A stretch of DNA of 64,000 nucleotides, taken from NCBI GenBank assembly GCA_023251255.1, contig JAHEZD010000002.1:1-64000 (forward strand), written 5' to 3'. Of this stretch, positions 19,745 to 34,951 are shown piece by piece. Source of the DNA: Chitinophagaceae bacterium (GTDB lineage: Bacteria; Bacteroidota; Bacteroidia; Chitinophagales; Chitinophagaceae). Position 1 is the first letter of the stretch, and each line of letters starts with the position of its first letter. A model generated the notes under the pieces. It was not told where the DNA came from. It saw only the letters and a program-made list of their open reading frames with translations, and made no database searches. A program made the position numbers and the translations under genes.

Positions 19745-20908
19745 TTATTTGGCAATAAAACGGTGGATACTTGCAGCGGCTTTGGCAGAAGCATGGCCAC
19801 CGGCAGACAGGATGTTTTTCAATTGAATATAATCTTCCTTCAGCTTAGCAATCCTTGTTCCATCGTTTAGCAGTTCATTCAGTTCCTTCACGAGATTGAC
19901 CGGTGTGAGTTCATGTTGGATCAGTTCCTTCACTACGGGCCTATCCATGATCAGGTTCACCAACGAGATGAATTTTATTTTGATCAAACGTTTACCAATC
20001 TGGTAACTGATATTGCTGCTCTTGTAGCAAACTACTTCGGGCACGCCAAACAAGGCTGTCTCCAAGGTTGCAGTACCGCTAGTAACCAGCGCCGCTTTGC
20101 TTTTCATCAACAAATTGTAAGTATCGTTCCTTACAGATGAAACATTGGTATAAGCTGCGAGGAACGGTTCGTAAAAACTATCTTCCTGCCCCGGGGCCAT
20201 GGCCACCACAAATTGATAACCGGGAAATGATTTGGCCACCTCTAGCATGATTGGTAATTTTTTTATTATCTCCTGTTTGCGGCTGCCTGGTAATAATGCG
20301 ATGACGTTGCTTGATGAGTGGTGAATGGTGAGCGGTGAAATAGCAGGGCTTGCATCATCCTTGACCATTGACCATTCACTATTCACTGGTTCGCTTTTCT
20401 TTCTTTCAATTTCCTCCACCAATGGATGCCCAACATATTCCACCTCCCAGTTCCATTTATTTTTGTAATAATCTTTTTCAAAAGGAAGTATGCAGAGCAT
20501 TCTATCAATGTTCTGTTTCATTTTCTTTACGCGGTTTTCCTTCCATGCCCAAACCTGCGGGGAAATGTAATAGACAATTTTATAACCTTGCTGCTTGGCC
20601 CATTCAGCAATCCTCAAATTGAAACCGGGATAATCAATCAGCACCAGAACATCTGGGTTAAAAGCTGCAATATTTTCCTTGCAGAACTTAATATTCTTAA
20701 AAATGGTCGGCAGGTTTTTCACTACTTCTACAAAGCCCATAAAAGCTAATTCCCTGTAATGCTTTACCAATGTGGCTCCTGCTACTTGCATTAAATCACC
20801 ACCCCAGCAATGGATATTGGCTGATGTATCCAGTTTATGCAGTTCCTTGATCAAGTTGCTGCCATGTAAATCGCCACTAGCTTCCCCTGCAATAATGTAA
20901 TATTTCAT
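19745..20908 (-). CDS. lpxB: Lipid-A-disaccharide synthase with repeat-derived insert
   Basis: Joins UDP-diacylglucosamine and lipid X to form the lipid A disaccharide at the inner membrane. 387 residues. Family motifs: MKYYIIAGEASGDLHGSNLI at the start, CWGGDLMQVAGATLV, LIDYPGFNLRIAEWAK, YYISPQVWAWKENRVKKM, LLPGSRKQEI and VTSGTATLETALFGVPEVVCYK. Between the two lobes, residues about 174-199 are encoded by DNA of the heptamer repeat family (GTGAATAG... and TCACCATTCACC) and have no counterpart in normal LpxB; the frame and all motifs are kept. ATG at 20908. Confidence 0.94.
   Translation of the reverse strand: MKYYIIAGEASGDLHGSNLIKELHKLDTSANIHCWGGDLMQVAGATLVKHYRELAFMGFVEVVKNLPTIFKNIKFCKENIAAFNPDVLVLIDYPGFNLRIAEWAKQQGYKIVYYISPQVWAWKENRVKKMKQNIDRMLCILPFEKDYYKNKWNWEVEYVGHPLVEEIERKKSEPVNSEWSMVKDDASPAISPLTIHHSSSNVIALLPGSRKQEIIKKLPIMLEVAKSFPGYQFVVAMAPGQEDSFYEPFLAAYTNVSSVRNDTYNLLMKSKAALVTSGTATLETALFGVPEVVCYKSSNISYQIGKRLIKIKFISLVNLIMDRPVVKELIQHELTPVNLVKELNELLNDGTRIAKLKEDYIQLKNILSAGGHASAKAAASIHRFIAK
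20314..20389. repeat. Inverted heptamer repeat inside lpxB
   Basis: Plus strand GAGTGGTGAATGGTGAGCGG (20316-20335) faces CCATTGACCATTCACTATTC (20365-20384): related 7-mers in opposite orientation around a 29-base spacer. Same family as the array at 12937-13083. Its length keeps the lpxB reading frame open. Confidence 0.82.
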
Positions 20909-21002
20909 GCCTTAAATCCCTAAAGGGAAATTGATGAAGCTGCAAAATACAGCTTTGATGGCTATTGATGGAAATGTATGGATCCCGAACTTTTTTCTAA
21001 AT

Positions 21003-21067
21003 AACTAAAAAAATAGTTGTTCAACTAAAATATTAGTTTATATATTTGTTCAACTAAAAAAATAGTT
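21003..21067 (+). promoter_or_regulatory. Promoter with three BlaI-type operators
   Basis: Three palindromes AACTA-N6-TAGTT at 21003-21018, 21023-21038 and 21052-21067. The -7 element TATATTTG (21041-21048) lies between the second and third; TTG at 21017-21019 may serve as the upstream element. The last operator ends four bases before the ATG of the repressor gene. This is the layout of an autorepressed BlaI/MecI-type operon, with binding expected to cover both the promoter and the start site. Confidence 0.85.
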
Positions 21068-21071
21068 GAAG

Positions 21072-21434
21072 ATGAGCAAGCCTCTAACCAAAGCAGAAGA
21101 ACAAGTTATGCAGGGCCTATGGAAATTGGGTAATGCCTACTTGAAAGATATTATTGACGTGTTGCCAGAACCAAAGCCACATAGCAATACGGTGGCCACC
21201 ATTCTTAAGATTTTAATGGATAAGGAATATGTAGGCCATGAGGTACATGGCCGGGTGCACTATTACCATACTTTGGTTAGTAAGGAGGAATATTCATCCA
21301 GCAGCATAAGAACATTGGTTGATGGTTATTTTGAAGGGTCTTTTGCCGATGCGGTTTCTTTTATGGTAAAACAGAAAGACTTGAAGGTGAAGGACCTTGA
21401 ACTGTTGCTGCAACAAATCAAAACAAAAAAATAA
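21072..21434 (+). CDS. BlaI/MecI/CopY family transcriptional repressor
   Basis: 120-residue winged-helix repressor. Opens MSKPLTKAEEQVMQGLWKLGNAYLKDIIDVLPEPKPHSNTVATILKIL, with the recognition helix, followed by the wing VGHEVHGRVHYYHTLVSKEEY. The C-terminal part (VDGYFEGSFADAVSFMV) is the dimerisation helix region; the preceding segment would contain the site cut by the cognate M56 protease. ATG at 21072 rather than the TTG at 21066. Six bases separate it from the M56 gene, so the pair is one operon. Three operators upstream argue for autoregulation. Confidence 0.95.
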   Translation: MSKPLTKAEEQVMQGLWKLGNAYLKDIIDVLPEPKPHSNTVATILKILMDKEYVGHEVHGRVHYYHTLVSKEEYSSSSIRTLVDGYFEGSFADAVSFMVKQKDLKVKDLELLLQQIKTKK

Positions 21435-21440
21435 TCTGTC

Positions 21441-23618
21441 ATGCTAACTATTGCTTACTATTTTTTGCAGGTTGTATTGTGCAGCATCATCATGATGGGC
21501 TATTATTGGCTGATGCTGCGCAATAAGAAATTCCATCAGTACAACCGTTTTTATTTGCTTGGTGCTGCTTTGTTATCATGGTTCATTCCATTGATAAAAA
21601 TCAATGTGTCCAGACCAATAGAAGAAGCCCCTGCACAGTTAATAAACCTTGCAAGCATCGTTGCGGGCAATAATTCTGAAATTGAACAGCTTATTGTGCA
21701 AAAGGATTTTGCCATTAATTGGGATATGGTAATTATCAGCCTATATGGTTGCATCTGTACAATCTTCCTGTTTTCCATTGTTGCTGCTTTGCTCCGTGTA
21801 TACCATTTACTCAGGAAGCATTCCTGCAGAAGTCTGGGAGATGTTTATTTAATCATGACGGCCAATGTTAGGGGTACCCCATTTTCTTTTTTCCAATATA
21901 TTTTTTGGAACGAAGCTGTGGATATGCAAACACCTATAGGCCAGCAGATTATGCAGCATGAACTGGCACATGTGAGGGAGAAGCATAGCGTTGACAAATT
22001 GTTTATGCAAATAGTGATTATGTTCGGCTGGTTCAACCCATTTTTCTGGCTGCTTAAAAAGGAACTGAACCTGATCCATGAATTCATTGCCGATAAAAAG
22101 GCCGTTCAGGATGGGGATGCCTCTTCATTGGCGGCCATGTTGTTAACGGCTGCTTATCCAAACCAACAGTATTTATTAACCAATCCATTTTTCTTTTCAC
22201 CTATTAAACGACGGATCCTCATGCTTACAAAAACCAACAATCCAAGATTATCTTATGCAAGAAGGGTAGTAGTGCTGCCATTGCTTGCCGTAACAGTAAT
22301 GCTGTTTGCTTTCAGGAAGAAAGAAACAGCAAAAAACATTGCACCGTTAAACAAGGTTTATACGGTGGTGATTGACGCAGGACATGGCGGTAAGGACCTT
22401 GGCGCTACCGCTGCAGATGGCACGGCCGAAAAAGATTTGGCATTGCAACTCCTAAAAGCAGTAAAGAATGCCAATACAAACGATAAAATAAAACTGGTGT
22501 TTACAAGGGAAGAAGATGTATATCAAAGCCCTATCGACAAAGCAAAATTCGTGAATGGACAAAAAGCCGATTTATTTATTTCATTGCATATTAATTGGTC
22601 AGCACAAGCTTCTGAATTAGAACGGGGCTTTGAAATAAATGTTCCGGGAAAGCAGCTTTCAAAAGCTGCTATTGAGCAAAGCAATTTATTGGCAAAGCAT
22701 TTAGCCGGGACATTGTTTAAGGAATATCCATCTCAAGGCGTGCATATCCCTAAGAAAGGCATTTGGGTATTAACCAATAGTTATTGCCCATCTGTATTGA
22801 TTGAATGTGGCAATATTAATAATCCAAAAGACTTGGCTTTGTTGAAAGATGAAAAGCAAAGAAATAAAATGGCCGGGTTGATTTTGGAGGGGATTGGGAA
22901 CTATTTGGCAAACAGTAAAGACCTTGCTGAAATTAGTCTTGACCAGAAATCCATTAGCGATAGCTTAAGCAAAGAAGATTTTGATAGATATATGGCAATT
23001 GCAAAAAGTTGCCAAAAGGAAATCAAAACAAAGGAAGATAAAGCAATGCTTGTGATTGATGCAAGTAGGGTACCCCAAGATGAGCTAGGTGAAATGTATA
23101 AAAAAATGAACAACAGGCAAAAGGGATTAGCTGCCAAAGTTTTTATTGTTAAGAAAAACGAAGCTAGCTCAAATAAGGAAGGGTCGTTAAATAAGCGGTT
23201 GAACCTTTTGAAAAATGTAGGGGACGCATTTATGCTTTCACCTCTCAATAATGGCTACATAAAAGAGAGGTTTGGTAAGAATATAATATTGCAGCGAGCA
23301 AAATACCTTACAACAGTAACCAATGATGGTATTAAAATCTGTTCAAAAACAGATAACAATGTGAAGAGTATTACAAGTGGAACAGTGAGTTTTACTGGCA
23401 AGATATCGGATGAGCAAGTCGTAATTGTACGGTCAGATAACAAGTTTATCAGTTATTCTGGAATGAGCAGTACCAATTTGCAAAAGGGGCAAACTATTTC
23501 CGTGGGCACATCCATTGGCGAAGCTGGAAGCATGGATAATGAGAATTATGTATCCTTATTAGTAACAGATAATGCTGGCAAGTTTCTTAACCCTGAGAAC
23601 TTGTTTGCAATGAAATAA
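21441..23618 (+). CDS. BlaR1-like M56 protease fused to N-acetylmuramoyl-L-alanine amidase and LytM-like domain
   Basis: 725-residue fusion. N-terminal membrane part with several helices and the M56 zinc motif HELAH at about 173-177 (followed by VREKHSVD), a further helix near 274-291 (VVVLPLLAVTVMLFAF), then an exported region. There an Amidase_3 domain runs from about 307 to 490: VVIDAGHGGKDLG, GTAEKDLAL, FISLHIN and VLIECGN supply the H, E, H and E expected for zinc and catalysis. A basic linker follows, then a LytM/M23-like domain from about 610 (GTVSFTG, VVIVRSDNKFISYSGM, KGQTISVGTSIGEAG) without its zinc ligands. In BlaR1 the outer part senses beta-lactams; here it would cut or sense peptidoglycan. 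Directly after the BlaI gene. Confidence 0.9.
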   Translation: MLTIAYYFLQVVLCSIIMMGYYWLMLRNKKFHQYNRFYLLGAALLSWFIPLIKINVSRPIEEAPAQLINLASIVAGNNSEIEQLIVQKDFAINWDMVIISLYGCICTIFLFSIVAALLRVYHLLRKHSCRSLGDVYLIMTANVRGTPFSFFQYIFWNEAVDMQTPIGQQIMQHELAHVREKHSVDKLFMQIVIMFGWFNPFFWLLKKELNLIHEFIADKKAVQDGDASSLAAMLLTAAYPNQQYLLTNPFFFSPIKRRILMLTKTNNPRLSYARRVVVLPLLAVTVMLFAFRKKETAKNIAPLNKVYTVVIDAGHGGKDLGATAADGTAEKDLALQLLKAVKNANTNDKIKLVFTREEDVYQSPIDKAKFVNGQKADLFISLHINWSAQASELERGFEINVPGKQLSKAAIEQSNLLAKHLAGTLFKEYPSQGVHIPKKGIWVLTNSYCPSVLIECGNINNPKDLALLKDEKQRNKMAGLILEGIGNYLANSKDLAEISLDQKSISDSLSKEDFDRYMAIAKSCQKEIKTKEDKAMLVIDASRVPQDELGEMYKKMNNRQKGLAAKVFIVKKNEASSNKEGSLNKRLNLLKNVGDAFMLSPLNNGYIKERFGKNIILQRAKYLTTVTNDGIKICSKTDNNVKSITSGTVSFTGKISDEQVVIVRSDNKFISYSGMSSTNLQKGQTISVGTSIGEAGSMDNENYVSLLVTDNAGKFLNPENLFAMK

Positions 23619-23802
23619 CAAGAACTTGAAATAAAATCCTGGCAGGATTCAAAAATAGAGATGGGGCCAAAATAGGCTGCAACTAGCGCATAGTGGTTAC
23701 AGTAAATGCAAAATAGGGGCATCAATTCCACATTGCTTACTCCGCAATTAAAGGGATATCATTCCATAGGCGATTCTTCTTCAAAATCATATTGCTTACA
23801 AA

Positions 23803-26181
23803 TTGACTATAAAAAATAGACTGTTATTTCTATGCCTTTTATGTTTTGTTTGCAGTGCATTGCACTCGCAAACAAGACTAATTGGTCATATCGCCGATAG
23901 TACCAAGAAGCCTTTGCCTCTGGTCACTGTTTCATTGTTTCAGGATAATCGGTTTGTAGGGGCAACTGCATCTGATGAAGAAGGTGATTTTCAACTGGTA
24001 TTTGAATGTGAAAAGAATAAAGCCTATTCTGTTAGGTTCTCTTTGATTGGATACCTGTCTATTGATAAAAACGTCGGTTTATCTGATACCAGCCATGTTT
24101 ATAGTATTGTTCTGCTTCAGACCAGAACTGTTTTAAGCAATGTAACAGTAACAGCTAAAAAACCTTTGGTAACACGGAAAGCTGATCGGTATACCATTGA
24201 TGTTGAAAATAGTTTCCTGGCAAATGGGAATTCAGGCTTGGAGGTTTTGCAGAAGTCTCCCGGTATCTGGGTTGATAATAATGGTAGTATCCGTATAAAA
24301 GGAAGCCAGCCAGTCTTGGTGATGATCAATGATGTGGTACAGCGCATGGGTACCGAAGAGTTATCGGAATACCTGAAAACTTTAAAGTCAGAGGACATTA
24401 GTAAGATTGAAGTAATAGCGAACCCTCCTTCAGAATTTGAAGCATCCGGTACCGGTGGCCTTATCCATATTGTACTGAAAAAAGCAAGGAAAAATGGGTT
24501 GAATGCTTCTGCCAATGCTCAGTACCGTCAGCAAGCGGATAAACCTTATACAAGTATAGGTTCATCTTTGGACTATAAATTGACAAACCTTTATTTATTG
24601 GGGAGCGTTACACTTACCAAAGATGTGAGATCCATTTTTGCAACCACCTATATCAACTATCCCGACCTGAGTATTTATCGTAACCATGCTAATAGAAATG
24701 ATAATACCGATAGACAGCAATACAGAATTGGATTTGTTTATGATTTACATGCAAACCATTCCATTGGGCTGCAGTCTGTTTCAACATTTAATGACCAGAT
24801 ACAATCTTTCATTACCGATGGGTATCTGGAAAAAACTGCCCAGACAGTAGCAAGCACTTCCTATTCCAGTAAATCCAGGAATGTCCATTTCAACAGTATT
24901 ACCTTGAATTATTCTTGGAAAATGGACAGTATGGGTTCTGCATTGAAAATGATTGCTGATTATTCATCGAATGCAAAAAAGGAAAGCAATTATTTTTCAA
25001 CAGTTTATGTTGACCCATTGCAGAACATAACCTATAAAAACAATGCTCCTAATAGTACAAATGCTTATTCAATACAGGCAGATTATAACAAGGTGATGAA
25101 GCACAAAATGGAAATAAAGAACGGCATCAAATATATTTCCATCAAAAGGAACAATGAAATATGGAGAGAAAATCTAGCAAGCAATAATTGGGTAATGGAT
25201 TATGCACAGAGCAACCATTTTATTTACGATGAGGAAGTATTGATGTTTTATTCATCCATTGAAAAGAATATCAAACGAACAAACGTCAAAGTAGGGGTAA
25301 GGGGCGAAGAGACTTTTTCCAGAGGGAATTCCATTAGCTCCAATCAACAGTTCTCCAATCAGTATTTCGGTTTATTCCCTTCACTCTTTATTGCGCATAC
25401 TTTCAATGAATCGAGTGGTGATGCAGTTTACATAAATTATACAAGGCGTTTGCAAAGGCCCACACTTTTGCAATTGAATCCTGCCCGTTTGCAGTTTGAT
25501 AGCTATACTGCGCAAACTGGCAATCCCAATTTACAGCCACAATATTCACACAACGTACAAACGGGATACAATTTTTTGCGTGGGTACTCAATTGATATCT
25601 ATTTCGTAAGGATTGAAAATATGATTGGTTTATTGGCAAATCCGGGCAGCAATAACACAATTGAATACCAATCGGAAAATTTGAACAATAGCACAGAATA
25701 TGGATTGAATATCAATGCAGCCTTTAAGGTAATAAGAACGTGGTCATGTACCAATTCCTTTTCCTTGCAGCATTTATCCTACAGCATCAATGATTACCAT
25801 GTTAACCAAAGCACCTTTTCAATAAAATCAATCCATACGGCTGCCATCAGTAATGTAATGGATATAGATGCCATTGCTAACTATAGCTCATCTTATGTTA
25901 GCTCCAATTATGCTATTCCATCTATGGGTTCTTTAGATGTTGGCTTTGCCAAAAAAATGTGCAAGAATAGGGGAAGGATAAGATTGTATTTCTCCGATGT
26001 TTTTAATACGTTATGTGAAAGTGAAGTAACAGATTATAAGGGCACACATATTGATTTTTACCAGAAACGCCCGACAAGAACAGTAAGCCTTTCATTCAAT
26101 TACAGTTTTGTTACCGGTAAAAAATTCAGTAGCAAGAAGATTGAACAAAACAGCGACGAGAAAAACCGGATTGGAAATTAG
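23803..26181 (+). CDS. Outer-membrane beta-barrel protein (TonB-receptor-like, OMP_b-brl_3 type)
   Basis: 792 residues with signal peptide (LLFLCLLCFVCSALHSQ), a carboxypeptidase-regulatory-like domain (LIGHIADSTKKPLPLVTVSLF...), a plug-like domain (ADRYTIDVENSFLANGNSGLEVLQKSPGI; VLVMINDVVQRMGTEEL; IEVIANPPSEFEASGTGGLIHIVLKK), then a beta-barrel of about 550 residues ending in an aromatic-rich strand region. The start is TTG at 23803; no ATG, GTG or closer codon precedes the signal peptide. It follows the M56-amidase gene by 184 bases on the same strand and could be part of that regulon. A strong terminator follows. Confidence 0.88.
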   Translation: MTIKNRLLFLCLLCFVCSALHSQTRLIGHIADSTKKPLPLVTVSLFQDNRFVGATASDEEGDFQLVFECEKNKAYSVRFSLIGYLSIDKNVGLSDTSHVYSIVLLQTRTVLSNVTVTAKKPLVTRKADRYTIDVENSFLANGNSGLEVLQKSPGIWVDNNGSIRIKGSQPVLVMINDVVQRMGTEELSEYLKTLKSEDISKIEVIANPPSEFEASGTGGLIHIVLKKARKNGLNASANAQYRQQADKPYTSIGSSLDYKLTNLYLLGSVTLTKDVRSIFATTYINYPDLSIYRNHANRNDNTDRQQYRIGFVYDLHANHSIGLQSVSTFNDQIQSFITDGYLEKTAQTVASTSYSSKSRNVHFNSITLNYSWKMDSMGSALKMIADYSSNAKKESNYFSTVYVDPLQNITYKNNAPNSTNAYSIQADYNKVMKHKMEIKNGIKYISIKRNNEIWRENLASNNWVMDYAQSNHFIYDEEVLMFYSSIEKNIKRTNVKVGVRGEETFSRGNSISSNQQFSNQYFGLFPSLFIAHTFNESSGDAVYINYTRRLQRPTLLQLNPARLQFDSYTAQTGNPNLQPQYSHNVQTGYNFLRGYSIDIYFVRIENMIGLLANPGSNNTIEYQSENLNNSTEYGLNINAAFKVIRTWSCTNSFSLQHLSYSINDYHVNQSTFSIKSIHTAAISNVMDIDAIANYSSSYVSSNYAIPSMGSLDVGFAKKMCKNRGRIRLYFSDVFNTLCESEVTDYKGTHIDFYQKRPTRTVSLSFNYSFVTGKKFSSKKIEQNSDEKNRIGN

Positions 26182-31193: not shown

Positions 31194-34100
31194 TTAAAAG
31201 TTGAAACGTACACCCAATTGACTTATCCATCTTGCGGAATAAGCTGGTGTGGCACTAACGTTTAGATTTAAAGGAACAAAATTTGGATTGAACCTATATT
31301 GTGGAGTAAGGTTAGTAGCACTAACATATCCAGCAAATCCAATCGGAGCAACCTGGTCGAAACTAGCAAAATAGCTTCTGCCCCAATCCCTGTTCAAGAA
31401 GTTGGTAAAGTTGAACATATCATACGTTAATTGGAACTGGTAACGGTGACCAGCAACCTTGATATTGAAATCTTGCGTGATTTTCAAATCAACGTTATTG
31501 GTGAAAGGTAAACGTGATCCGTTCCTTTCTGCAAAATGTCCACGATTGTTATTCAAATAAGGTGTTTTTTGAATAAACTGTTCAAGCGCATCTTTCTGTT
31601 GTTGAGGTGTATAAGTAGTTGTACCAACAGTATTGCTTAAGAATGTCATTGCTTGAAGTTCGGTTGCTGTTGGAATGTATATCAAGTCATTTAAGCCAGT
31701 GGTGCCATCATCTCTAATTGCACTACCAGAAGAATAGGTATAGCTAATTGGGTTACCGCTTTGACCAGTATAAAAGAGTCCAACTGTTGTTGCCAAGGCC
31801 TTTTTAGCATAAGTGAATTTCTTGCTTAAAAATGCTGTTATCCTATGCCCTTGGCTAAAATCGGAAATATTGGTAGATAAACCATTCCTGCCATTAACAG
31901 ACTCTTCGTTCCTCCATTGACTAAGGTTTACGGAACTTGTAGCTTCATTAACAACTACTGAATTACCGTAGGCATAGCTCATATTGAAATTGAAACCAGT
32001 GTTGGTCCTTTTATCAATAGTGAAACTGAAATTGTAGGCAAAACCTTTAGGCTGTGTTGTATTGTTCGATACCAAAATAGCGTTATCATAAGGATTTGTA
32101 CCTGTTGATGTAATAGGAATATTGTTGGTACTTGTCCCTGTTACACCATATACGGTACGAGGACCGGCACCCAAGGAAACACCTACAGGTGGAAGGATAT
32201 TAATATTTGTATAGTATATCTCATTTATGTTTTTGCTAAACATTCCTTCAAAAGTCCCAGTCCAGCCATTTCCGAACTTCTTGTCAACCGCTAAGGAAGT
32301 TCTCCAAAGTTTAGGCATTTTGAAATCAGCAGAAATCAGGTTCAATGGTCCTTTTGTTAAACTAACACCAACACTACTTGCTGGCCAAATGCTTCCATTT
32401 ATGTTATTGGGATCCCACCTGAAGCGAATAAGGTTCAATGCGGTAGCAGGAGCTGTATATCCTCCTACAAATAGGCCATTGTTATTGTAGACGCCTCCAG
32501 GCCAAACCAACGGCATCCTACCAGAGAAGATACCGATACCTCCACGAACTGTGATGGATTCATCAGGAATTTTGTAGGTAAAGCCAAATCTGGGAGAGAT
32601 GGATAAAGGGATGTTTGGTTTTTGACCAGACCTTGCTCCCTTTAAGTCATAGTATTGCGCAAATTTCGGAAGGGCAATATCATTGGTGTAAGGATCCGCA
32701 GTAGGGGTGGAGAGGAACTTATATAAATCGCCCCTGATGCCAAAATTCAACGTCAAGTTATCACCTGTACGTATTTCATCAGTCCAGAATGCAGCACCTT
32801 TTCCAACCTTAAATTTAGCTGCTGCACCAGTATTGTCATTTAATTGGTTGTCTATAAGTGGGTAACCAACTTGGTAACTTGTTGGGGCAACATTATTTGC
32901 AATAAAGTTGGCCAAACCTGTAGTGGTAACAGCACTGCCCACATTATTATACCTGTAATTGCCAAAAGTATTTTGTATGAAAACATTGTAATCATCAAAA
33001 TATTCATAATCAACGCCCAATGTCATTGCATGTTTGCCCACATTGAATTTGAACGCATCTACTATGCCCAAGTTCTTTTGGGTCAACAAATTCTGTGTGC
33101 TGCTGTTGTCAGGTCCAATATTAAGTGTTCCGCCCGGTCCATCTTGAATAGCAATACGTGGAAATGGATTACCTGTAATGTTCCTATCGTCGTTTACATC
33201 GCTGTAGGTAATTAAAAGTTTATTACTTGAACTGCGGCCTACTACGGTTTTTAATTCAACTGAAACGGAATTGGTGGTACTGGGAAAATCTGGCCCACCA
33301 TTGCTGAAATTGATTGTTGAACTGGAACTTAAGGAAGGGCTGTTGGATACAGCTTTATTAAGCCTGTAACTAACGGACAATCTATTTTTCAAATTGATGT
33401 TCCAATCAATTTTTGCTGAAATCCTATCAACATTCAACGTTTTTTTTGTACTCAAAAAATCTCCTGGATCATATTTATAGGTATTCTTCAATACATCAAT
33501 TAGTGCCTGTATCCCGGCTACAGTTGTTGTGTTGCCTTTATAGGTACTGAAGTCAAAAGGTTGCGGCGTTTGGTCCCTTTGTTGTTCTACGCTAACAAAG
33601 TAGAAAACTTTGTTTTTTACAAATGCCCCACCAATTCTTGCACCATAAGTTTTGTTGGTGAAATCGGAGAATTTTGTCGCCAAAGATTTATCCCCATTCG
33701 GAGTCTTACCAGCAAGGTCCTGGTTGCGGTAAAAATAATATACAGAGCCTGATGTTTTGTTGGAACCACTCTTGGTAACAGCGTTGATGCCACCACCTGT
33801 GAAATTCCCTTGGGAAGCATCATAAGGAGAAATAACAACTTGAAATTGGTCTATGGCGTCTATGGAAATTGGCGCAGCACCTGTTTGGCCTCCATTGGTA
33901 CCTGAATTTGCTAGACCAAATACATCATTATTGATTGCACCGTCCACGTAGAATGAATTGTAACGGTTATTTTGCCCAGCAATTGAAACGGCACCTTCAT
34001 TGCCGCCAATCAATCTTGCTTGTGGCACAGTACGTAAATAATCGTAAATATTACGTCCTACACTTGGTAAGCCATTCATTTTATCAGCACCTATGGTTGT

Positions 34101-34511
34101 TGATGTACCGCCTTTACCGGAAAATTCCTCAGTTTTCTTGGTAGCGGTTACAGTAACCCCTGCAATATTCGTAGCCTTGGATGCCAAAGCAAAATCCACC
34201 TTGAAGCTTTCGCCAAGGTTCAAATAAATGTCTGTTTTCTTTTCTGTTGCAAAATTGATGAATGAAACTTCCACCGTATATGGACCACCCGGGTTCATAT
34301 TGTTAATGTCAAAACGGCCACCAGTGCGGCTTTGAACTTTGTAAACAGTTCCTGTAGGTTCATGGGTTGCAATAATGGTGGCACCTACCAAAACTTCGCC
34401 TGTATTGGTTTTTACACTACCACCAAGACCGCTCGTTGTGTTTTGTGCCATTGCAATTGCCGGCAGTAACAATACCGCCAAAACGAATTGTAAGATTTTT
34501 CTACTAAGCAT
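31194..34511 (-). CDS. Oar-like TonB-dependent outer-membrane receptor
   Basis: 1105 residues from ATG at 34511 (MLSRKILQFVLAVLLLPAIAMAQ signal peptide). A carboxypeptidase-regulatory domain (SGLGGSVKTNTGEVLVGATI), a plug (GGTSTTIGADKMNGLPSVGRNIYDYL; SFYVDGAINNDVFGL; SPYDASQGNFTGGGINAVTKSG) and a large barrel follow, with the DWNINLKNRLSVSYR turns and a C-terminal barrel region ending in RWISQLGVRFNF. This matches the Oar subfamily of TonB receptors. Ligand unknown; Oar-like proteins are implicated in adhesion, development or large-substrate uptake. A palindrome-rich region (34695-34822) lies in its 5' flank. Confidence 0.93.
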   Translation of the reverse strand: MLSRKILQFVLAVLLLPAIAMAQNTTSGLGGSVKTNTGEVLVGATIIATHEPTGTVYKVQSRTGGRFDINNMNPGGPYTVEVSFINFATEKKTDIYLNLGESFKVDFALASKATNIAGVTVTATKKTEEFSGKGGTSTTIGADKMNGLPSVGRNIYDYLRTVPQARLIGGNEGAVSIAGQNNRYNSFYVDGAINNDVFGLANSGTNGGQTGAAPISIDAIDQFQVVISPYDASQGNFTGGGINAVTKSGSNKTSGSVYYFYRNQDLAGKTPNGDKSLATKFSDFTNKTYGARIGGAFVKNKVFYFVSVEQQRDQTPQPFDFSTYKGNTTTVAGIQALIDVLKNTYKYDPGDFLSTKKTLNVDRISAKIDWNINLKNRLSVSYRLNKAVSNSPSLSSSSTINFSNGGPDFPSTTNSVSVELKTVVGRSSSNKLLITYSDVNDDRNITGNPFPRIAIQDGPGGTLNIGPDNSSTQNLLTQKNLGIVDAFKFNVGKHAMTLGVDYEYFDDYNVFIQNTFGNYRYNNVGSAVTTTGLANFIANNVAPTSYQVGYPLIDNQLNDNTGAAAKFKVGKGAAFWTDEIRTGDNLTLNFGIRGDLYKFLSTPTADPYTNDIALPKFAQYYDLKGARSGQKPNIPLSISPRFGFTYKIPDESITVRGGIGIFSGRMPLVWPGGVYNNNGLFVGGYTAPATALNLIRFRWDPNNINGSIWPASSVGVSLTKGPLNLISADFKMPKLWRTSLAVDKKFGNGWTGTFEGMFSKNINEIYYTNINILPPVGVSLGAGPRTVYGVTGTSTNNIPITSTGTNPYDNAILVSNNTTQPKGFAYNFSFTIDKRTNTGFNFNMSYAYGNSVVVNEATSSVNLSQWRNEESVNGRNGLSTNISDFSQGHRITAFLSKKFTYAKKALATTVGLFYTGQSGNPISYTYSSGSAIRDDGTTGLNDLIYIPTATELQAMTFLSNTVGTTTYTPQQQKDALEQFIQKTPYLNNNRGHFAERNGSRLPFTNNVDLKITQDFNIKVAGHRYQFQLTYDMFNFTNFLNRDWGRSYFASFDQVAPIGFAGYVSATNLTPQYRFNPNFVPLNLNVSATPAYSARWISQLGVRFNF

Positions 34512-34951
34512 AATGTTAATTTTTCGGTACAAAGAAAATGAATTATCTCTTTCCTCTGCCAACATAATGTTAACAAATTGAAAGTTATCAAGGGTTAAGG
34601 CTTATTAAATAGAAGTTGTTTAAACTTTTTGGAAAATTGCCTTGAGGGTAGCTTGTTCTCATTCATACTATGCGCATCTAGATTAAAATTCCGAGGTGGA
34701 ACAAAATCTTTGGAACATGTTAAGATGTTCCAATAAAAATGTTCCAAGACTTGTGGAACAAAAAAGTTGGACCATGCTGAAATGTTCCAGAAAAAATGTT
34801 CCAGTATAGATTTATGGAACATTGTAAGAGTTATGAGTTATTTGTTCAGCAAAATCGATACTTGGCCAAAGACTTACGAACAAAGGAAAACAAACAACAA
34901 TCAGTTTCCTGTTGCCTGCCCAATTGTACATTTGTACTTCAATAATATAGT
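34512..34951. other. Intergenic with TGGAACA half-sites between Oar-like gene and ribBA
   Basis: From about 34696 to 34821 there are eight copies of TGGAACA or its complement TGTTCCA, including a palindrome TTGGAACAT-N6-ATGTTCCAA at 34710-34733. No gene is called; the reverse frame through the repeats is a shadow. The ribBA promoter lies at 34927. Confidence 0.6.
34927..34934 (+). promoter_or_regulatory. ribBA promoter
   Basis: TACATTTG matching TAnnTTTG, ending 17 bases before the ATG; TTTC sits 19 bases upstream (34904-34907) as the -33 element. No FMN riboswitch fold was recognised in the short leader. Confidence 0.7.

Follow-up and report, generated by a model that had tools for sequence, protein, structure and literature searches.

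The window analysed here, a stretch of 64,000 nucleotides (positions 1 to 64,000 of the forward strand of contig JAHEZD010000002.1) from the Chitinophagaceae bacterium of assembly GCA_023251255.1, contains a BlaI-type repressor gene followed by the gene of a 725-residue protein in which an M56 membrane protease is fused to a peptidoglycan amidase. The reading that we favor, with slightly less than even confidence, is that this protein is a BlaR1-type receptor bearing an active-looking amidase at the position of the exported sensor, i.e., a self-regulated, membrane-tethered amidase receptor. Comparison of sequences brings out a protease with both of its motifs, an intact-looking amidase, a BlaI-type gene, and tandem dyads on its promoter; export and activity of the amidase, sensing by it, and cleavage of BlaI are what we infer. 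The locus is more than the product of chance, because its three main domains exceed the curated cut-offs and because the M56-amidase fusion recurs in other genomes.

The repressor contains a Penicillinase_R domain (Pfam PF03965, 98.5 bits for a cut-off of 22.6), and its residues 5–113 match MecI (1okr, expectation value E = 5.3e-6). Its gene has an ATG at 21072 and a stop at 21434, and the listing of open reading frames (ORFs) opens the same frame at TTG 21066. The receptor gene (21441–23618) is a single uninterrupted frame, which excludes the frameshift that the first-pass annotation, made from the letters alone, had considered as splitting the protein in two. ORFs and Pfam confirm the places that this annotation had given to the BlaI gene, the M56-Amidase_3-degenerate LytM protein, and a beta-barrel gene behind it. 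Its range of 21072–26181 thus stands for the genes; it starts at the ATG of blaI, so that the operators at 21004–21066 fall outside.

The M56 domain (PF05569, 40.9 bits for a cut-off of 31) has the motif HELAH at residues 173–177, then E214-x3-D218. In a structural account, the protease motifs of BlaR1 are HExxH and ExxxD, and the protein is Nout-Cout with the sensor outside and the active site toward the cytoplasm (PMC9834060). Residues H173, E174, H177, and E214 are kept in all 85 proteins compared (80 loci, the window, and four more proteins), and D218 is invariant in an alignment of 38 rows. By sequence, the M56 part has no match among solved structures at E = 1, and it was fold comparison alone that found BlaR1. 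Residues 4–253 of the model match Staphylococcus aureus BlaR1, the best entry being 8exs (Z 16.0, root-mean-square deviation, rmsd, 4.8, 214 residues aligned, 14% identity), and five electron cryomicroscopy entries (8exp, 8exq, 8exr, 8exs, and 8ext) match with Z 13.7–16.0 over these residues at most. The full-length model has a mean predicted local distance difference test score (pLDDT) of 68.8 and a predicted template-modeling score (pTM) of 0.44; it is good at residues 91–240 and 301–490 and poor at 55–90, 241–300, and from 570 onward. The Pfam search of the receptor (E up to 1) gave no transpeptidase or beta-lactamase family as a beta-lactam sensor, and the NCBIfam model blaR1_generic covers only residues 168–230, with 23.6 bits for a cut-off of 400. 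By its chassis the protein would work like BlaR1; it is not classed as BlaR1 because it has no beta-lactam sensor. The earlier description of a BlaR1-like protease adjoining BlaI, with an amidase where the sensor would be, is therefore supported by Pfam and by the fold match of the model.

The amidase is clearly recognized (PF01520, 131.9 bits for a cut-off of 27) and its four key residues, H315, E330, H383, and E455, are present, confirming that they are intact as first described. The model of the domain superimposes on the Clostridioides difficile amidase 4rn7 with Z 29.8 and rmsd 1.4 over 181 aligned residues, and both 4rn7 and CwlV (1jwq, Z 26.8) align over its full length; the sequence match to AmiA/AmiC ends near query residue 86–90. 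From the second zinc histidine to the catalytic glutamate there are 72 residues in the window and 68–82 in the other 74 fused amidases. The same spacing in the two free amidases read from the window's genome is 150 (L135, AmiA-like) and 62 (L134). The fused domain is thus an uninserted Amidase_3 like CwlV and 4rn7, which, in contrast, are not tethered to a protease. The H-E-H-E set is complete in 70 of 75 fused amidases, and the one in the window looks intact and active, as far as one can judge from sequence. The hydrophobic segments of the receptor lie at residues 1–19, 39–57, 96–114, 187–205, and 273–291, and the amidase begins 15 residues after the last of them, within the 12–19 residues found in 47 of the 75 fusions. 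If segment 187–205 does not cross the membrane, as in the BlaR1-like fold, the amidase is exported, and from homology and the hydrophobic segments a location outside the membrane is likely. A cytoplasmic amidase, which the first-pass annotation had raised as the finding that would undo its proposal, is consequently unlikely, with the caveat that the last helix is weakly modeled.

The fusion is frequent within the family, whose members are environmental bacteria. From 495 relatives in a scan of named genomes the 80 best were retained, many of them belonging to Sediminibacterium, Ferruginibacter, or other Chitinophagaceae; 70 of these 80 loci have a match spanning both M56 and amidase, and Amidase_3 stands behind M56 in 75 of the 85 proteins. 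A spanning match was found in at least 81 of 294 family genomes, counted by hand as rows extending from position ≤10 to ≥400 of 489 among matches listed to about E = 4e-94; one of these fusions, in G233, has two in-frame stops. Among 395 genomes across the phylum, G634 is the sole spanning match outside the family among the matches listed (to about E = 3e-44). In the genus of the window, three of ten genomes (G000, G001, and G002) have the fusion; G002, a genus-mate, is the same record as locus L053, and G016 the same as L126. The recurring unit is BlaI plus the M56-amidase fusion, and the LytM tail is not part of the core, to judge from these sequences. The three-part architecture proposed at first is rare (two proteins), and its two-part M56-amidase component is the one that recurs.

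What follows the amidase is variable. The 75 fusions have a plug and TonB_C (31), a plug (17), no recognized module (15, including some ended by the contig end), TonB_C (5), or one of several smaller classes; the window protein matches neither a plug nor TonB. Plug segments of L036 and L210 exceed the cut-off of the SusC/RagA signature. SusC-type plug and TonB_C exported tails occur in many M56 receptors, such as those at L036:8359-11010, L210:5458-7650, and L054:4569-7166, and it looks as if parts of outer-membrane transport had been built into a signaling protease. The tail of the receptor at L127:8001-10940 has weak matches to the third and fourth GldM domains, below the Pfam cut-offs.

The presence of the amidase also varies. 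On an M56 tree of 99 proteins, made by a quick method and with some long branches, it requires 12 changes, 7 of them forced by well-supported branches. Ten loci of the set L053–L132 lack a fused amidase, three of these being ended by the contig end. Co-directional Amidase_3 genes lie about 60–110 bases behind amidase-less receptors at L113:10647-11627, L119:10266-11180, L121:3625-4575, and L129:10472-11407; L115, L120, and L123 have no separate amidase gene behind the receptor. In the same set, the DNA fetched for the loci with a fused amidase contains no second amidase ORF. When one counts only loci with at least 1.2 kb behind the receptor, a separate amidase is found in 3 of 6 amidase-less and 0 of 60 fused loci, the rows being related and L119 (1.1 kb) outside the count. 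The Pfam spans of the separate amidases are 254–255 residues, i.e., of the inserted type. At L044:7550-8365, a separate amidase gene immediately precedes blaI, and the M56 receptor there lacks an amidase.

Self-regulation is predicted from the operators. The dyad ACTA-N6-TAGT is found upstream of blaI in all 75 regions (the window and 74 of the 80 loci, the other six offering too little sequence or no predicted BlaI close by), in two copies in 50, three in 24, and one in a single region. Of the 98 gaps between copies, 82 follow a 20-base period, and half-sites spaced by N4, N5, N7, or N8 gave one match in total in the same regions. Nearly all matches of the 74 loci (168 of 177) fall in blaI upstream regions. 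A promoter-like TTG-N17-25-TAnnTTTG surrounds an operator in 35 of the 75, against a TAnnTTTG background of 0.43 per kb. In the window, the three exact matches stand together, all within the intergenic region (20909–21071) between blaI and the divergent lpxB; with one mismatch allowed, the pattern shows no enrichment there (22 matches for 15.5 expected, and 8 of 100 shuffles reach as many). The genome (6.1 Mb, 188 contigs) has 48 single sites, and their sole cluster is at the blaI promoter, for which reason the predicted output is the operon itself. Its one other M56 protein above cut-off, L001, lacks an amidase, and no ACTAN6TAGT occurs in the 3,840 bases of that locus. Of 147 family genomes, 64 contain the tandem operator with 20-base period, with 73 matches in all, and one contains its reversed control.

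Thirty of these 73 matches were returned as loci, and in 28 the tandem operator directly precedes blaI, L180 and L209 being the exceptions. Nine apparent exceptions were read, including these two. In L212 and L215 the operators do precede blaI, and in L214 a tetratricopeptide repeat (TPR) gene stands between them and blaI-M56-amidase. A MacB/FtsX-type permease gene has the same intermediate position at L210:2494-7650 and L211:2472-7309. BlaI presumably binds the tandem dyads at its own promoter, as expected for the BlaI-controlled locus of the first-pass annotation, which the operators before blaI support. The output would usually be the blaI-receptor operon itself, and some genomes would have additional genes or targets. 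In 39 of 74 loci a divergent lpxB is found no more than 1 kb from blaI, and lpxB is a possible further target.

Under the reading of an amidase receptor, the amidase would engage the wall near the inner membrane, some 15 residues from the last hydrophobic segment, and this engagement would shift the M56 protease to its active state. The active protease would cut BlaI and derepress the operon of blaI and the receptor, so that more tethered amidase would be made; in the window, transcription may run on into the beta-barrel gene. Of the one-protein switch relaying the state of the wall to BlaI that was proposed at first, the BlaR1-like protease and the amidase are supported, as are operators before blaI; control by LytM and a general output through the barrel are not.

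Several observations weigh against this reading. The match to the BlaR1 fold stops at residue 253 and leaves the last helix (segment 273–291) uncovered; this helix has a pLDDT of 45–61, and with three lysines or arginines before it and five after it, charge leaves export undecided. In 28 of the 75 fusions the linker to the amidase has 40–58 residues, which weakens the case for tight coupling. The last catalytic position is changed, by alignment, in 4 of 75 amidases (L039, L100, L101, and L103); it is cut off in one more (L090). Single operator sites are not enriched in the window's own genome (48, for 286 of the reversed control), and operator pairs stand in fetched stretches that contain no BlaI gene in L213, near a thiolase gene, and in L216, L217, and L218. 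Last, among 14 more loci without a fused amidase, L044 alone has an amidase as a separate ORF. The BlaI-less tandem pairs at L216:1459-1492, L217:1969-2002, and L218:1622-1655 are either further targets or chance.

The most serious competitor, plausible though somewhat less probable, takes the amidase to be the regulated output, an effector tethered to the inner membrane, the signal entering through the membrane part of M56 or, in other members, through plug or TonB-like tails. This is consistent with the close M56 relatives that have plug/TonB tails and no amidase, with the separate amidase gene that replaces the fused one in L113, L119, L121, and L129, and with the scattered presence of the amidase on the M56 tree. 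However, the amidase occupies the position of the BlaR1 sensor, with a short linker in 47 of 75 fusions, and neither plug nor TonB is matched in the window protein.

A variant of the amidase-receptor reading, by analogy and improbable, is that the receptor makes its own signal: stem peptides freed by the amidase from the wall near the inner membrane would be taken up, trimmed, and would release BlaI. The precedent for stem peptides acting on BlaI comes from Bacillus licheniformis, where gamma-D-glutamyl-meso-diaminopimelate (gamma-D-Glu-mDAP) releases BlaI from its operator in vitro (PMC3305447). If true, one protein would join a wall hydrolase and a receptor protease to a repressor switch and act as a self-reporting gauge of the wall within the membrane's reach.

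The first-pass annotation proposed instead a switch in cis, in which the LytM tail would control the amidase of the same chain much as EnvC or NlpD act in trans, and this we regard as quite unlikely. The tail is indeed LytM-like (PF01551, 40.4 bits for a cut-off of 28.7), 33% identical to the EnvC-like L133_5 of its own genome, with EnvC-type domains as its nearest relatives. That it lacks zinc ligands, as first described, is borne out: the ligand positions of M23, by what we take to be its motif, are lost when one reads the alignment with EnvC-type domains by eye. To open AmiA/AmiB, EnvC acts on their regulatory domain, which contains a blocking helix and an interaction helix, residues 151–194 of AmiA (PMC10268282). 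This insertion is not present in the fused amidase (spacing of 72, against 150 in L135), so that activation in cis by the EnvC route is unlikely. Furthermore, only the window and L093 have the tail among the 75 fusions; the other 73 have no LytM match. With an amidase-LytM profile on 394 family genomes, no other protein among the matches listed passes position 288 of 435, although this profile could miss a tail set apart by a long and divergent linker. The cis switch is therefore unsupported and is not our leading model.

The two tailed proteins do not form one clade (approximately unbiased test, p-AU 5.9e-76; 28 of the 85 proteins), a point in favor of the cis switch, as both are amidase-bearing receptors. 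The LytM parts of the two share 27% identity, against up to 33 and 34% with EnvC-type domains. Two independent gains are the simplest account of these sequences, one old gain with many losses being the alternative history; the tree of EnvC domains left the origin of the two tails unresolved and only identities are used here, the set having included L133_2, L175_1, and L178_1, drawn in by weak matches outside the LytM part. The tail is perhaps a rare accessory that binds the wall or partner proteins, rather than a switch of the amidase. It is modeled with pLDDT < 50 in two structure predictions. The preceding linker (residues 495–624) matches L053 (phmmer, E = 4e-11) and has a pLDDT of 52–72 at residues 501–570, lower beyond. 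Two EnvC-like genes in tandem, their LytM domains degenerate, are also present in the window's genome (L133:2187-5127).

The beta-barrel gene (PF14905, 282.4 bits) lies where it was first described, co-directional and 184 bases behind the receptor, and its proposed role as the regulated output is still less likely than the cis switch. A relative lies about 70 bases behind the receptor in L053, one close relative, and read-through or co-transcription is possible because positions 23400–23900 contain no TAnnTTTG on the + strand. However, the next gene is on the opposite strand in 49 of 66 loci, and among eight co-directional next genes put through Pfam, OMP_b-brl_3 is found, besides L053, only in L081. 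As a general output the barrel is thus unsupported, the window's type occurring behind the receptor in L053 only. As for a chance fusion or an assembly error, its probability is negligible given the recurrence in at least 81 of 294 family genomes and 70 of 80 loci from named records.

The system resembles BlaR1/BlaI and MecR1/MecI of S. aureus and B. licheniformis in the M56 protease with HExxH and ExxxD and the same fold over residues 4–253, an enzyme-derived C-terminal domain, an adjacent BlaI-type repressor, and promoter dyads. It differs in having an Amidase_3 with its catalytic residues instead of the beta-lactamase-like sensor, an operator with an A+T-rich core, and a predicted regulon that is its own operon, with no beta-lactamase gene therein. 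Like FtsEX-EnvC-AmiA/AmiB, it combines an amidase and an EnvC-type degenerate LytM domain, but here both are in one polypeptide with a protease, the regulatory insertion is missing, and the tail is rare. The Bacteroidota M56 receptors with plug and TonB_C tails, such as those of G013, G018, G023, G024, and G032, share the M56 type, the BlaI neighbor, and the tandem operator; unlike the window protein, they have no amidase in the exported part. The literature searched, which left most subscription papers outside its coverage, contains no description of an M56-amidase receptor, making it a variation on BlaR1/BlaI signaling without a described counterpart there. In a review, proteins that combine M23 with a second catalytic domain, for which it names amidase and M56 among others, make up less than 1% of the matches (PMC9662197).

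BlaR1, through which staphylococci sense penicillin, is familiar as a receptor for antibiotics, whereas in this family its chassis bears a wall enzyme and seems to regulate chiefly its own genes. The use of this chassis for wall sensing thereby becomes testable, and a defined operator is at hand. Naturally occurring loci in which the amidase is fused, encoded separately, or missing open the communication between exported domain and M56 protease to experiment.

Features of the locus (positions in the window; the promoter-like site follows what we presume to be the Bacteroidota consensus)
Feature	Position	Strand	Basis
lpxB, divergent neighbor	19745..20908	-	PF02684, 306.2 bits
Operator 1, AACTA-N6-TAGTT	21003..21018	.	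exact ACTAN6TAGT match at 21004-21017
Bacteroidota-type promoter-like site, TTG-N21-TATATTTG	21017..21048	+	pattern match
Operator 2, within the promoter-like site	21023..21038	.	exact match at 21024-21037
Operator 3, adjoining the blaI start	21052..21067	.	exact match at 21053-21066
BlaI/MecI-type repressor, 120 residues	21072..21434	+	PF03965; MecI 1okr match
M56-amidase-linker-LytM receptor, 725 residues	21441..23618	+	single open frame, Pfam domains
M56/BlaR1-type membrane zinc protease, residues 1-297	21441..22331	+	PF05569; BlaR1 8exs fold match
Amidase_3 domain, residues 304-494	22350..22922	+	PF01520; 4rn7 fold match
Linker, residues 495-624, partly common to L053	22923..23312	+	phmmer match to L053
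Degenerate LytM (M23) tail, EnvC-like, residues 625-725	23313..23615	+	PF01551
Outer-membrane beta-barrel protein (OMP_b-brl_3), 792 residues	23803..26181	+	PF14905

Farther along the window, at 31194–34565, lies another large outer-membrane beta-barrel gene (OMP_b-brl_4, 1123 residues).

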